Below, in pieces: positions 4,052-34,250 of a DNA stretch of 35,667 nucleotides (positions are counted from its first letter, which is position 1; every line of letters begins with the position of its first letter). The notes under the pieces are model-generated. The model was not told the origin of the DNA, did not search any database, and saw only the letters and a list, made by a program, of their open reading frames with translations. The stretch is from contig JAHFAK010000009.1 in assembly GCA_023250585.1 (NCBI GenBank), forward strand, positions 1 to 35,667, read 5' to 3'. The DNA is from Deltaproteobacteria bacterium. Its GTDB lineage: Bacteria; Bdellovibrionota_F; JAHFAK01. A program made the translations under genes and the position numbers.

Positions 4052-4173
4052 AAAAGGCAATCAAAAGGTGGGGACCGACATGTGAGCTCATTTAGTAGGA
4101 GGCATTTTATTATCACATATTGATGCCTGCTCAATGCGTTCATATGTCGGTCCCCACCTTTTGATTGCCTTTT
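4052..4173. repeat. Long hairpin element (30-bp arms 4052-4081 / 4144-4173), singleton type in window
   Basis: AAAAGGCAATCAAAAGGTGGGGACCGACAT and its exact reverse complement; pairing continues imperfectly inward (TGAGCTCATT..AGGAGGCAT vs ATGCCTGCTCAATGCGTTCA). Confidence 0.95.
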
Positions 4174-5127: not shown

Positions 5128-5254
5128 CCGAAACGTGCCCGGCAACTTTCGGTCCATTTTCCGACCAAATGGTACCCTCACTTTACCCCATCTTTTACAT
5201 ATGGGTGTACCTTTTGGTCGATTTTTCGACCGAAAGTTGCCGGGCACGTTTCGG
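5128..5254. repeat. Long hairpin element (27-bp arms 5128-5154 / 5228-5254) with nested inner stem
   Basis: CCGAAACGTGCCCGGCAACTTTCGGTC and exact reverse complement; inner CGACCAAAtGGTAC / GTACCttTTGGTCG. Confidence 0.95.
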
Positions 5255-13486: not shown

Positions 13487-13643
13487 GTAACAGCTCAGTT
13501 AATGGGGGAGTAAGGGAGTAGGAATGTTCTCACAAAGAATTTCTATCGACGTCGCTTCCATAATACTATTAAGAACGGGGTAAGCGCGCTCGATAGAAAT
13601 TCTTTGTGAGAACATTCCTACTCCCTTATAACTGATGGATTAC
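13487..13643 (+). repeat. Family A hairpin element copy 1 (38-bp perfect arms 13512-13549 / 13590-13627)
   Basis: AAGGGAGTAGGAATGTTCTCACAAAGAATTTCTATCGA and exact reverse complement around core CGTCGCTTCCATAATACTATTAAGAACGGGGTAAGCGCGC. Confidence 0.97.
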
Positions 13644-18664: not shown

Positions 18665-19021
18665 ATGGCAACTATACGTATCAATGATCTCAGAACAGAA
18701 TCTATTATTGGTATTCATAAACATGAACGAAAGAAAAAGCAGCCGCTCATCATAAATATTACATGTACGTATAATTCAACAAAATCTGAAAGAACTGATA
18801 CTATTACCGATGCTGTTGATTACGATACACTCACAAAAAAAATTCTTGCCCATGTTTCAGCATCGCACTATTTTCTTATTGAACGTCTGGCTTCATCTAT
18901 TTTAGAAATTGTTATGGAAAATAAAAAAATAAAAGAAGCAACCGTCCATCTCCATAAACCCCAAGCAATTAAAGAGGCTCGATCAGTGTCAATTGAGCTT
19001 CATGCACAGAGATCACGATGA
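18665..19021 (+). CDS. folB: Dihydroneopterin aldolase-family protein (FolB/FolX)
   Basis: MATIRINDLRTESIIGIHKHERKKKQPLIINITC...TDAVDYDTLTKKI...FLIERLASSI; downstream of folE. Confidence 0.82.
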   Translation: MATIRINDLRTESIIGIHKHERKKKQPLIINITCTYNSTKSERTDTITDAVDYDTLTKKILAHVSASHYFLIERLASSILEIVMENKKIKEATVHLHKPQAIKEARSVSIELHAQRSR

Positions 19022-19962
19022 AATCCTGTGATGTCGGTGTTATTGGAAGTGGGGTAGCAGGAATTTCTGCGCTTATCTGGCTTAAACGGCTCGGCTTGCA
19101 TGCAGTTATGTTCGAAAAAAATTCTTCAATTGGTGGGCAATTAATCAATGTTCATAATCGCATTATCGATTACCCTGCGTTGTATGGTCTTACGGGTAAT
19201 GAAATGATTACACAACTAACAAGCCATCTTGAAGCTTTACAATGTGAGTGGCAAACAAATGTGCATGTTCTTTCGCTTGATACTGAAAAAGAACACGTTA
19301 TACTCAAGCTTTCACGAAACTCAGGAACTACTGAAATGATTTCCTCGCGTTATGTAATTATAGCAACAGGAGCACAAGAACAAAAATTATCTATCCCCGG
19401 AGAAGATAAGCTCGATCTCTATCAGGGAAGCCTTTCAACATCTAAAGATATTTCGGTATTTAAGAATAAAAAAGTTATTATTATCGGCGGTGGAGATAGA
19501 GCATGTATTGGAGCCAATAGAATTAAAGACATTGCCCAAGAAGTTATTCTCATTCATCGACGAGCTAGTCTTACTGGACGCAAAGAATTGATAGATCCCC
19601 TCTTACAAAGTTCTCGTATAACCATTAAACCTCATTCAGTAGTGACTGAAATTATATGGAAAAATAAAAAAATTGAATTGGTAAAAATTAAAGATCTATC
19701 AAATCAAAAAGAAGTCATGATCCAAGCTGATATTGTATTAATTAGGATTGGAATAGAGCCAATTCTAGGCCTTCTAAAACAGTATCTTTCAAAAGAAGAT
19801 ACAATAATTCCCACGAATAATTATGGAAAGACACAATTCTCTGATAGGATTTATGCGATTGGAGATGCAAGCCATTCCCCTCACTATTCAAGCATTAGTG
19901 CTTCAGTTGGAGAAGGTATGCTTGCAGCAAAAGATATTTCACTGCACATCAGAAAAGAATGA
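19018..19962 (+). CDS. FAD-dependent pyridine nucleotide oxidoreductase, TrxR/ferredoxin-NADP reductase-like, lacking redox CxxC
   Basis: VGVIGSGVAGISALIWLKRLGLHAVMFEKNSSIGGQL, VIIIGGGDRACIGANRI, YAIGDASHSPHYSSISASVGEGMLAAKDI; no CxxC before the second Rossmann motif. Confidence 0.85.
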   Translation: MKSCDVGVIGSGVAGISALIWLKRLGLHAVMFEKNSSIGGQLINVHNRIIDYPALYGLTGNEMITQLTSHLEALQCEWQTNVHVLSLDTEKEHVILKLSRNSGTTEMISSRYVIIATGAQEQKLSIPGEDKLDLYQGSLSTSKDISVFKNKKVIIIGGGDRACIGANRIKDIAQEVILIHRRASLTGRKELIDPLLQSSRITIKPHSVVTEIIWKNKKIELVKIKDLSNQKEVMIQADIVLIRIGIEPILGLLKQYLSKEDTIIPTNNYGKTQFSDRIYAIGDASHSPHYSSISASVGEGMLAAKDISLHIRKE

Positions 19963-19968
19963 ATGTTG

Positions 19969-20124
19969 AATCCCTCAGTTATTAGGGAGTAGGAATGGTT
20001 CTCACAAAGAATTTCTATCGAGCGCGCTTTCGTGTTCTTAATAGTTTTATGGAAGCGACGTCGATAGAAATTCTTTGTGAGAACCATTCCTACTCCCTTA
20101 CTCCTCCATTAACTAAGCTGTTAC
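19969..20124 (-). repeat. Family A hairpin element copy 2 (38-bp perfect arms 19984-20021 / 20061-20098)
   Basis: AGGGAGTAGGAATGGTTCTCACAAAGAATTTCTATCGA and exact reverse complement; core in opposite orientation to copy 1, slightly diverged. Confidence 0.97.
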
Positions 20125-20131
20125 TGAATGT

Positions 20132-20764
20132 TTATTTCTTTTTATTCATTCGTGTATAGGTCATTGCCATTGTCATGAACTCTTTACCAGCTTCGTCCTT
20201 GGCCCACATGGTATAGGTAAGTTCATCTTTGCCTATCTTAAATTCACTGCGGAACCATTTATCTTGTTCACCAGTCATTGGACAGCTAGCACTTCCACTC
20301 TCTTTTATTGTCTTTGTAGCTGCATCATATTGCCCTGTTGATTTAAAAATACCGGTCATCATGTCATCCATCCAAATTGAATTATACTCTTTCTTTACTT
20401 TATCATAACCACAAAATCCCATGCCTTCGAATTTCTGACCAGCCCAATTGCCTTTGAATTCTTGTTTGATAAAACGTCCACCCAAAACCCAAGACATGGT
20501 GCTTGTGCCTTCGGATTTTTCTTCTGGAGCGCCTGGCTTCATCCATGATTTACTGGTAACTTTCCATTTTCCTACTACATCATTAAATACTGCATGTTCA
20601 GCACCGGGTGTGCCCATTTCTTTCATTTTAGCCATTTGAGCTTGCATCTCGGGAGTCATTTCCATTTTTCCCATGGCTTTTTTGTCAGCTGCATTGACTG
20701 CTGTAGCTAAGAAAATTGCCAGAATTAATCCTTGCATAAGTGTCTGTAATCGTTGTGTCTTCAT
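20132..20764 (-). CDS. DUF1579-type secreted protein
   Basis: Signal peptide LMQGLILAIFLATAVNAA; VGKWKVTSKSWMKPGAPEEKSEGTSTMSWVLGGRFIKQEFKGNWAGQKFEGMGFCGYDKVKKEY. Confidence 0.8.
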   Translation of the reverse strand: MKTQRLQTLMQGLILAIFLATAVNAADKKAMGKMEMTPEMQAQMAKMKEMGTPGAEHAVFNDVVGKWKVTSKSWMKPGAPEEKSEGTSTMSWVLGGRFIKQEFKGNWAGQKFEGMGFCGYDKVKKEYNSIWMDDMMTGIFKSTGQYDAATKTIKESGSASCPMTGEQDKWFRSEFKIGKDELTYTMWAKDEAGKEFMTMAMTYTRMNKKK

Positions 20765-29415: not shown

Positions 29416-29572
29416 GTAATGGCTCAGTTAATGGGAGAGTTAGGGGATAAGCATGTTCCCAAAAAGAATTTCTATCGACGTCGCTTCCATAATACTATTA
29501 AGAACGGGGTAAGCGCGCTCGATAGAAATTCTTTTTGGGAACATGCTTATCCCCTAATAACGGAGGGATTAC
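29416..29572 (+). repeat. Family A hairpin element copy 3 (38-bp perfect arms 29441-29478 / 29519-29556)
   Basis: TAGGGGATAAGCATGTTCCCAAAAAGAATTTCTATCGA and exact reverse complement; core identical to copy 1. Confidence 0.97.
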
Positions 29573-31663: not shown

Positions 31664-32971
31664 CTAACTCTTCTTAAAAATCACATGCAATGGCACACCA
31701 CTGAACTCGAATGATTTTCGTAATAAGTTTAGAATATATCGCTTATAGCTCTCGGTAATTAAATCCGGATAATTACTCATGATTTGAAAAATGGGCGGAT
31801 CAGCTTTAATTTGAGAAATATATTTCAGCTGTATATTTTTGCCTTGAATAGCTGGATGATGTTTGCGTCTCGTGATTGATTGAAGAAAGTCATTGAGAGC
31901 TGATGTCTTTAGCTTCTGTTTTCTATTCTCGGCTACTTTTTCAATTGCATCAAATATTTTATATACTCGTTGACCGGTCTCTGCCGAAATAAATAAAATC
32001 GGCGCATACTCAACAAAGGTATAGTTTTCTGCAATTTTATCACTGAATACTCGATACGTATTAGTTTCTCGCTCAACTAAATCCCACTTGTTAAAAAGTA
32101 TGATGAGCCCCTTCCCTGCCTGATCGATATAATGGAGTATTTTAGCATCTTCAGTGCTTGGCGTAGTTGATGAATCAAAAACAAAAAGTACAATCGATGC
32201 ATTATCAATAGCTTTTAAGGTCCGCACAGCGCTGTAGATGTCAATAGCTTCCTTTGTTTTTCCTCTCTTGCGTAACCCTGCAGTGTCAACAAGTTGATAC
32301 TGCTTTTTATTATACGTAAAAAAACTCGATGTTGAATCTCTTGTTGTTCCCGGCTTTTCATGCACAATGTGCCGCTCTTTTTTAATAATTTTATTTATAA
32401 GTGAAGATTTCCCAACATTTGGTTTCCCAATAAACGCAATCGGAGTTGCTTCTTTTATTTCTGCAACAGCTTTATTGCGTGGATAATCTTTGAAGATGGC
32501 TTCAAAGAGCTCATCGATATTCTTATTATGCTCTGCTGAAATGCTGTAAAATTCTTGAGTTCCTAAGGAAAAAAAATCACTTTCATGAATCTTATACTCT
32601 TTAACATCTATTTTATTAATGACAAAAAAAATCTTCTTATTATGTTTTTTAAGATACACCGCAATTTCTTGATCAAGAGGATGCAGGCCATTTTTGCCAT
32701 CTAGAAGGAATATAAGAATATCTGCCTCTTCAATTGCAAAACGTGTTTGATCAAAAACATTTTTTCGTATTTCGTCAGCTTCATGAAATACTATACCGCC
32801 CGTATCAATGACCGTAAATGCGATTTCATCGAAGGTGCCTTCTCCATATATTCTATCACGGGTAAGCCCGGGAAAATCATATACAATTGCTTGCTTCTCA
32901 CGAACGAATCTATTAAAGAGCGTTGATTTTCCTACATTCGGTCTTCCTACAATGGCAATTATTGGCTTCAT
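31664..32971 (-). CDS. der: Ribosome biogenesis GTPase Der (EngA), two G domains
   Basis: IVGRPNVGKSTLFNRF...FPGLTRDRIYG; IGKPNVGKSSLINKI...PGTTRDSTSSFF; NKWDLVE; KH-like C-terminus. Confidence 0.97.
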   Translation of the reverse strand: MKPIIAIVGRPNVGKSTLFNRFVREKQAIVYDFPGLTRDRIYGEGTFDEIAFTVIDTGGIVFHEADEIRKNVFDQTRFAIEEADILIFLLDGKNGLHPLDQEIAVYLKKHNKKIFFVINKIDVKEYKIHESDFFSLGTQEFYSISAEHNKNIDELFEAIFKDYPRNKAVAEIKEATPIAFIGKPNVGKSSLINKIIKKERHIVHEKPGTTRDSTSSFFTYNKKQYQLVDTAGLRKRGKTKEAIDIYSAVRTLKAIDNASIVLFVFDSSTTPSTEDAKILHYIDQAGKGLIILFNKWDLVERETNTYRVFSDKIAENYTFVEYAPILFISAETGQRVYKIFDAIEKVAENRKQKLKTSALNDFLQSITRRKHHPAIQGKNIQLKYISQIKADPPIFQIMSNYPDLITESYKRYILNLLRKSFEFSGVPLHVIFKKS

Positions 32972-32982
32972 ATAAACTATTG

Positions 32983-33106
32983 ATACTAAGTTGCATTCAA
33001 ACGCTAACTGCGTTGGCTTCGTCGTCGGCTCCTCAACGTACTCATTACGTACGTTTGCGTCGCCTTCTCCTTGCCGACGTTTATCATTTTGAATGCAACT
33101 TAGTAT
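32983..33106 (-). repeat. Family B hairpin element copy 2 (19-bp perfect arms 32983-33001 / 33088-33106)
   Basis: ATACTAAGTTGCATTCAAA and exact reverse complement; reverse complement of core starts ATGATAAACG and ends GAAGCCAACGCAGTTAGCG as in copy 1. Confidence 0.93.
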
Positions 33107-33113
33107 GAAAACC

Positions 33114-33233
33114 GTAGAGAGGATGTATATGTTCTGTTTTTATTTTGTATCGAGCGCGCTTACCCCGTTCTTAATAGTATTATGGAAGCGACGTCGATAG
33201 AAAATAAAAACAGAACATATACATCCTCTCTAC
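33114..33233 (-). repeat. Family A hairpin element copy 4 with divergent arms (40-bp arms 33114-33153 / 33194-33233, one mismatch)
   Basis: GTAGAGAGGATGTATATGTTCTGTTTTTATTTTGTATCGA vs reverse complement ...TTTTCTATCGA; core is the exact reverse complement of copies 1 and 3. Confidence 0.96.
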
Positions 33234-33258
33234 ACTATCCTAATTAATTGTTTCTTTA

Positions 33259-34149
33259 CTAGTATCCAAACTCCTGTAAACTCGCTATATTATCAGTCCA
33301 ATTTTTTTTCAATTTTACATGAAGATCCAAATATACATGAATATTCAGTTGTGATTCTATATCCTTTCGTGCCGCAATTCCAATCTGTTTCAATTTCTCG
33401 CCACCTTTTCCTATTATAATTTTTTTATGCGATTCTTTTTCTATAAAAATAGTAGCATAAATTTTGAGTAATTTTTTTGTAGTATCTTCAGTGTACTGAT
33501 CAATAATAACACATACTCCGTAGGGAATTTCGTTATGCGTATAATCGAGGATTTTTTCGCGTACAATTTCGCTGATAAAAAACTTTTCTGATTGAGCAGT
33601 CACCATATCTTCTTCATAAATTCTCACACCTTCGGGAAGTCGTTTTATAATTTCATCGAGTACAAGATTTAATCCATCATTGTGCTTTACCGAAATAGGA
33701 ACAATAGTTTCCGTTACATTATATTTTTTTAGTTCATCTATTCGAGAAAGAATTATGCCATGTGGAATAAGATCAATTTTATTGATGACAATGATATGGG
33801 GAAGATGCGCTAGTTTTTTCAGCACCGTTATTTCATCTTCACTTAAGTTCTGGTGAGCTGCAATAAAAAATACAATAAGATCTGCTTCTCGTAATCCTAT
33901 TTTATGAACCTTTTGCATTGACTGATTGAGAAGAGTTTTTGGAATTCCAATACCAGGTGTGTCACAAAAAATGATTTGTGCTCCAGAAACATTTTTAATA
34001 CCAATAATTTTATTTCGCGTGGTCTCACGTTTTCGTGAGGTAATGGAAACCTTCTCATTCAGGATCGCATTTAAAAAAGAAGACTTCCCCAGGTTTGTTT
34101 TTCCAATAAGCCACACGTAACCACATTTGAAAGTATTATTGATTTCCAT
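33259..34149 (-). CDS. era: GTPase Era
   Basis: GYVWLIGKTNLGKSSFLNAIL, ITSRKRETTRNKIIG, FCDTPGIG, NKIDLIP; KH domain IVIGKGGEKLKQIG-like. Start set at MEINN (34149); upstream extension is repeat-derived. Confidence 0.93.
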   Translation of the reverse strand: MEINNTFKCGYVWLIGKTNLGKSSFLNAILNEKVSITSRKRETTRNKIIGIKNVSGAQIIFCDTPGIGIPKTLLNQSMQKVHKIGLREADLIVFFIAAHQNLSEDEITVLKKLAHLPHIIVINKIDLIPHGIILSRIDELKKYNVTETIVPISVKHNDGLNLVLDEIIKRLPEGVRIYEEDMVTAQSEKFFISEIVREKILDYTHNEIPYGVCVIIDQYTEDTTKKLLKIYATIFIEKESHKKIIIGKGGEKLKQIGIAARKDIESQLNIHVYLDLHVKLKKNWTDNIASLQEFGY

Positions 34150-34210
34150 ACTTATGGCGATCTTTATCCTCTTTAGTGATTTTTGGCAAGAAGCTTTCAG
34201 ATGTGAAAAT

Positions 34211-34250
34211 AACAGCTCAGTAAATGGGGGAGTTAGGGAGTACATATGAA
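34211..34250 (+). repeat. Family A solo half-element (left flank plus start of arm only)
   Basis: AACAGCTCAGTAAATGGGGGAGTTAGGGAGTACATATGAA matches the left flank of copy 1 (AACAGCTCAGTTAATGGGGGAGTAAGGGAGTA); no core or right arm follows. Confidence 0.8.

Follow-up and report, generated by a model that had tools for sequence, protein, structure and literature searches.

A new family of hairpin-bearing MITEs in a deltaproteobacterial genome and the paired change of the hairpin arms

Bacterial MITEs, such as those of Coxiella (PMC5896051), MITEAba12 (PMC6382973), and small mobile repeats (PMC2229807), are short, non-coding, and intergenic, carry terminal inverted repeats (TIRs) and target duplications (TSDs), and occur in tens of copies, and the element described here is like them in all these respects. 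Long inverted repeats are subject to a further process. Template switching between inverted repeats leads to arm homogenisation and spacer inversion (PMC8604942), has been proposed as a way in which hairpins can be maintained (PMC8794818), and has been proposed for the concerted repeats of nematomorph mitochondria (PMC6649704). Here we describe a locus at which a MITE and a long hairpin are combined. The window is the whole stretch of DNA analysed, 35,667 nt of contig JAHFAK010000009.1 from a draft genome of 2.24 Mb (164 contigs, 96.7% complete).

Copy 2 and its relatives in the window

The window holds four long inverted repeats of one family, which start at 13511, 19984, 29440, and 33114. 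The second of these, hereinafter copy 2, is a hairpin with plus-strand arms of 46 nt at 19984-20029 and 20053-20098, separated by 23 nt. Folded as DNA, the 115-nt hairpin reaches −49.4 kcal/mol, compared with −10.1 ± 2.3 kcal/mol for shuffled sequences (z = −16.9), which excludes a chance origin. The first arm carries an extra G (AATGGTTCTC, versus AATGTTCTC in copy 1) and the second arm carries the mirrored extra C (GAGAACCATT, versus GAGAACATT). The one-nucleotide insertion mirrored in both arms that the earlier note had read from these letters is therefore real, and as the 71 other copies examined all lack the extra G that copy 2 has in its two arms, the insertion is derived. The conserved, asymmetric apex of copy 2, TCGACGTCGCTT-N23-AAGCGCGCTCGA, lies on the minus strand at 20018-20064, and the core sequences quoted earlier for copies 1 and 2 hold once both are oriented on the same strand.

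The hairpin of copy 2 is not free-standing. It is carried within a MITE-like element of 157 bp on the minus strand, located at 19968-20124, with the ends GAATCCCTCAGTTA on the left and TAACTAAGCTGTTAC on the right and terminal repeats of the form GTAA...CTCAGTTA. Of the span 19969-20124 given earlier, the right edge stands and the left edge has to be moved to 19968; the earlier note recognised neither the transposon with its TSDs nor the spread of the family through the genome. The element is flanked by a perfect 8-bp TSD, TGAATGTT, at 19960-19967 and 20125-20132 (8/8; 0% of mismatched control pairs reach 8). The left TSD includes the TGA stop of the plus-strand gene at 19018-19962, and the final base of the right TSD falls within the stop codon of the convergent minus-strand gene at 20132-20764; insertion of copy 2 between the two genes therefore harmed neither.

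Copies 1 and 3 are also MITEs, both on the plus strand. Copy 1 (13487-13643) contains a hairpin at 13511-13628, with arms at 13511-13557 and 13582-13628, and has the TSD TACCGTAC / TACAGTAC (7/8). Copy 3 (29416-29572) contains a hairpin at 29440-29557 and has the TSD ACTCATAT / TCTCATAT (7/8). Copy 4 (33114-33233, minus strand) is a stand-alone hairpin with neither terminal repeats nor TSD, and it lies between adjacent Der-like and Era-like GTPase genes (31664-34245). Two more long inverted repeats, at 4052-4173 and 5128-5254, belong to different families. Related palindromes occur at C47:4632 (with GGTGGGGACCGACATATG) and C32:7376 (with TTGGTCG...CGACC), and because they share contigs with matches to Y1 (RAYT-like) transposases, these two repeats look REP-type.

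The MITE and the stand-alone hairpins across the genome

The terminal repeat GTAAYVSCTCAGTWA has 139 matches in the genome at no more than one mismatch, compared with 5 for the reversed control, and dozens of repeat-bounded elements of 155–161 bp are present. Among 68 candidate terminal-repeat pairs, 51 have a TSD matching at 7–8 of 8 positions (35 perfect); among mismatched pairs, 0.6% reach 7 and none reaches 8. The 157-bp element contains no open reading frame of at least 90 amino acids, and hence no transposase gene. With shared TIRs, a fixed 8-bp TSD, and no internal transposase gene, it represents a new family of MITEs that carry an internal hairpin, and it was probably moved by a DDE transposase that makes 8-bp duplications. 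Its GTAA ends and 8-bp TSD presumably resemble those of IS66. The IS66 transposase families PF03050 and PF05717 are absent from the draft genome at its 96.7% completeness, and we do not class the element as an IS66-type MITE. No transposase matching it was found, which speaks against the MITE reading to some extent, although the assembly may simply lack the autonomous element. A candidate autonomous element on contig C60 was rejected, being a chance terminal-repeat match inside a gene together with a shrunken MITE. Contigs C20, C32, C34, C44, C56, C98, C113, and C141 have MITE ends no more than about 170 bp from their termini; these repeats seem to interrupt the assembly, and copy numbers are lower bounds.

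A second, unrelated payload is found between the same MITE ends. It consists of nested GGATCCCG...CGGGATCC palindromes, and the total length of the element is equal, at 156–161 bp. Elements of this kind (L049, L050, L054, L062, L066, L073, L079, L082, and L083; contigs C14, C15, C42, C62, C93, C82, C113, C144, and C159) often have 8-bp TSDs, and internal deletions have produced shorter versions of about 106 and 91 bp. At L060:2434-2477, a MITE remnant of ~43 bp has lost its hairpin, apparently by deletion between two ATGCC microrepeats, and TTTTGAAC remains on both sides.

A covariance model places the hairpin family at about 77 sites in the genome, nearly all of them matched on both strands because the hairpin is symmetric. 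Of 72 copies examined, 37 are inside the MITE and 35 stand alone. The stand-alone hairpins have an edge ~36 nt from the apex, beyond which the flanks are unrelated and contain neither a terminal-repeat remnant nor a TSD, and no conserved target or flank motif was found at their insertion points. They are probably not merely old MITEs, since the residual terminal-repeat score is 6.06 versus 6.16 for shuffles and there is no excess of TSDs; great age may still apply. Nearly all copies are intergenic, with the next gene often about 10–25 nt away, and a rough hand estimate of how many close pairs of copies would arise at random comes near the number observed, so no clustering is evident. A coding role was rejected, as the apex varies in length by 1–2 nt between copies and reading frames are not kept. 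Two copies, L022 (C61) and L035 (C140), have arms with strong mismatch and look as though each were a fusion of two half copies; L146 (C159:30960) is a half copy without the left arm.

The family is new and was found nowhere else among the sequences searched. The apex pattern has 8 matches across a wider contig collection, none with complementary arms, and these are taken as chance matches; no member was found in the viral contigs, plasmids, and phages searched; and none was found in 58 other genomes searched with the pattern or in 39 searched with the covariance model, including the sole genome of the same class examined.

Apex and arms are not equally conserved. The apex, GACGTCGCTTCCATA-N6-TTAAGAA-(CAGGA or CGGGGT)-AAGCGCGNTC, is nearly invariant, with a pairwise difference of 9–11%, and its most variable part is the 6-bp centre. 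The transposon ends, to which a transposase has to bind, differ by 18–25% between copies and are thus less well conserved than the apex, which is probably held by selection. The arms (~35 nt compared) differ by 20% between MITE copies and by 31% between stand-alone copies, and within a copy they differ by just 1.3% and 2.1%, respectively. Relative to the MITE ends, the apex points one way in 23 copies and the other way in 14, and close relatives have opposite orientations (L094 and L095 versus L109).

Arm-to-arm copying and its alternatives

The family shows how the two arms change. Between nearest-neighbour copies, 153 arm positions have changed identically in both arms and 18 in one arm, differences that are counted between copies and do not represent independent events. 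In an alignment of 74 copies, 97.8% of cells are paired, with 772 two-sided and 14 one-sided (G-U) changes, a result reached by 0 of 500 shuffles; registers slid as controls give 38–54% pairing. This alignment was fitted to the hairpin model and so favours pairing, and a model-free comparison of the arms gives the same picture. The family as a whole thus supports arm-to-arm copying, proposed earlier from copy 2; copy 2 by itself contributes less.

Mirrored changes are not confined to substitutions. Mirrored deletions occur, for example in L150. In L111 (= L019), which is 148 bp rather than 157 bp, the B end has replaced the A end through a switch located in the shared CTCAGTTA, and the arm is extended to 45. 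L096 (= L001; 147 bp) shows similar overwriting of an end, and L023 shows the reverse direction. A mismatch in the apex has been erased in both directions, giving GACGTC in both arms of L106, L138, and L150 and GAGCGC in both arms of L153. One-sided intermediates are present as well: 26 of 72 copies retain mismatches or indels between their arms. The pattern of quasipalindrome template switching, with changes mirrored in the two arms and the spacer inverted between intact arms, is therefore found here.

We consider that the element is a non-autonomous MITE of ~157 bp with a hairpin whose arms are homogenised by template switching, with a probability of roughly 0.78. On this view, the MITE inserts and duplicates an 8-bp target, and it carries a 115–118-nt hairpin in which an asymmetric, near-invariant apex sits on a stem of ~47 bp. 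The long inverted repeat in the chromosome would act as a quasipalindrome, at which the nascent strand could switch to the other arm during replication, copy it, and return. A mutation in one arm would then either spread to its partner, as for the extra G in copy 2, or be erased; a switch across the loop would invert the apex; and the arms would drift as a pair with their complementarity kept. Arm homogenisation and apex inversion fit template switching because together they are its published signature (PMC8604942). Polymerase template switching, rather than recombination, probably does the copying. Part of these patterns could also arise by recombination between arms or between copies, and the mismatched arms of L022 and L035, as if two copies had recombined, run against the proposed mechanism. 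No orthologous copies were found in the relatives searched, and a copying event at one locus is not seen before and after.

Covariation is strong (37 of 45 pairs) and the apex is conserved, as would also be expected if the hairpin were a functional RNA whose stem pairing is kept by selection through ordinary compensatory substitutions. We regard this as very unlikely. In copies without indels, 31 of 2108 arm pairs are mismatched, and on the apex-sense strand only 5 of these are G-T (G-U in RNA) and 12 are A-C; wobble is tolerated on neither strand. A stem selected as RNA should be rich in G-U pairs on one strand, so their scarcity argues for copying of DNA. Moreover, the apex is sense to co-directional neighbour genes in 18 cases and antisense in 18 (with genes called as simple open reading frames), mirrored indels and mirrored extension into the transposon ends are unexpected for an RNA, and the window has 0 Rfam matches. 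Collapse of a palindrome during assembly or consensus building is an extremely improbable source of the mirrored insertion. The assembly is a draft in 164 contigs, with several family members at contig ends, but the arm mismatches and indels kept in 26 of the 72 copies indicate that symmetry was not imposed by the assembler, the arm sequence is particular to each copy, and most MITE copies have their own TSD.

Two further explanations concern the movement of the hairpin and its apex. The stand-alone unit might spread as single-stranded or hairpin DNA (HUH or rolling-hairpin), with the arms renewed on moving, one arm templating the other, and the apex flipping in each cycle. Such a cycle would fit the 35 stand-alone hairpins, which end about 36 nt from the apex, lack a TSD, and have unrelated flanks, as well as the four matches to Y1-type transposases in the genome and the two apex orientations. 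It is nevertheless unlikely, since mutated arms are mirrored also in the MITE, which moved with TSDs, an indication of duplex transposition, no hairpin of the family was found beside the Y1 transposase genes, and the insertion points have no conserved target. Alternatively, a site-specific recombinase might read the apex as a duplex (CTTCCATA-N6-TTAAGAA, with a variable 6-bp centre between two conserved blocks) and invert it or exchange it between copies. Such an enzyme would fit the variability of the centre, the occurrence of the apex variants CAGGA and CGGGGT with both arm types, and the chimeric copies L022 and L035 and half copy L146; however, it leaves the perfect complementarity of the arms unexplained, and clear chimeras or half copies number only three in about 77. 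We consider it highly improbable.

Homogenisation of the arms by template switching leaves a strange remainder, namely a near-invariant apex on a stem of almost free sequence, and 35 copies outside the MITE without trace of their arrival. It is possible, if doubtful, that the 117-nt hairpin outside the MITE is a genetic element in its own right, known by its shape, with the fixed apex and a stem of fixed length and largely free sequence, which a protein uses as a cruciform or single strand, which spread without TSD, and which was later captured by the MITE.

Relation to known systems

The process of arm copying is already known. Arm homogenisation and spacer inversion are usually inferred site by site, and ~77 replicates allow their rates, directions, and switch points and the fate of indels to be measured. 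The family also carries a warning. Strong helix covariation need not mean a functional RNA, because this family passes the covariation test, and yet both its strand independence and the scarcity of G-U speak against a function as RNA.

Compared with other bacterial MITEs, the present family has a near-perfect internal hairpin of 46–47 bp whose arms diverge together between copies, an apex in both orientations relative to the ends, and a hairpin that also occurs outside the MITE. Template-switched inverted repeats (PMC8604942, PMC8794818), including E. coli quasipalindromes (PMC7202029), have the same mirrored changes, arm extension, and spacer inversion; they have been described at single sites or in RNA genes, whereas here there are about 77 replicate copies in one genome. 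Concerted inverted repeats of nematomorph mitochondria (PMC6649704) are likewise long hairpins with arms that change together, and sponge mitochondrial repetitive hairpin-forming elements (PMC2800124) are also described as long hairpins. Both are from organelle genomes and are not TSD-flanked transposons with a fixed apex across tens of copies. REP and REPIN sequences associated with RAYT (PMC2817692, PMC3116915, PMC3733652) resemble the stand-alone hairpins in being numerous, palindromic, intergenic, and free of TSDs. However, REPs are 20–40 bp long and mostly have a GTAG or CGTC tag at one end, whereas the hairpins described here are about 117 bp long and have flanks with neither conservation nor motif, and none was found next to the Y1 genes.
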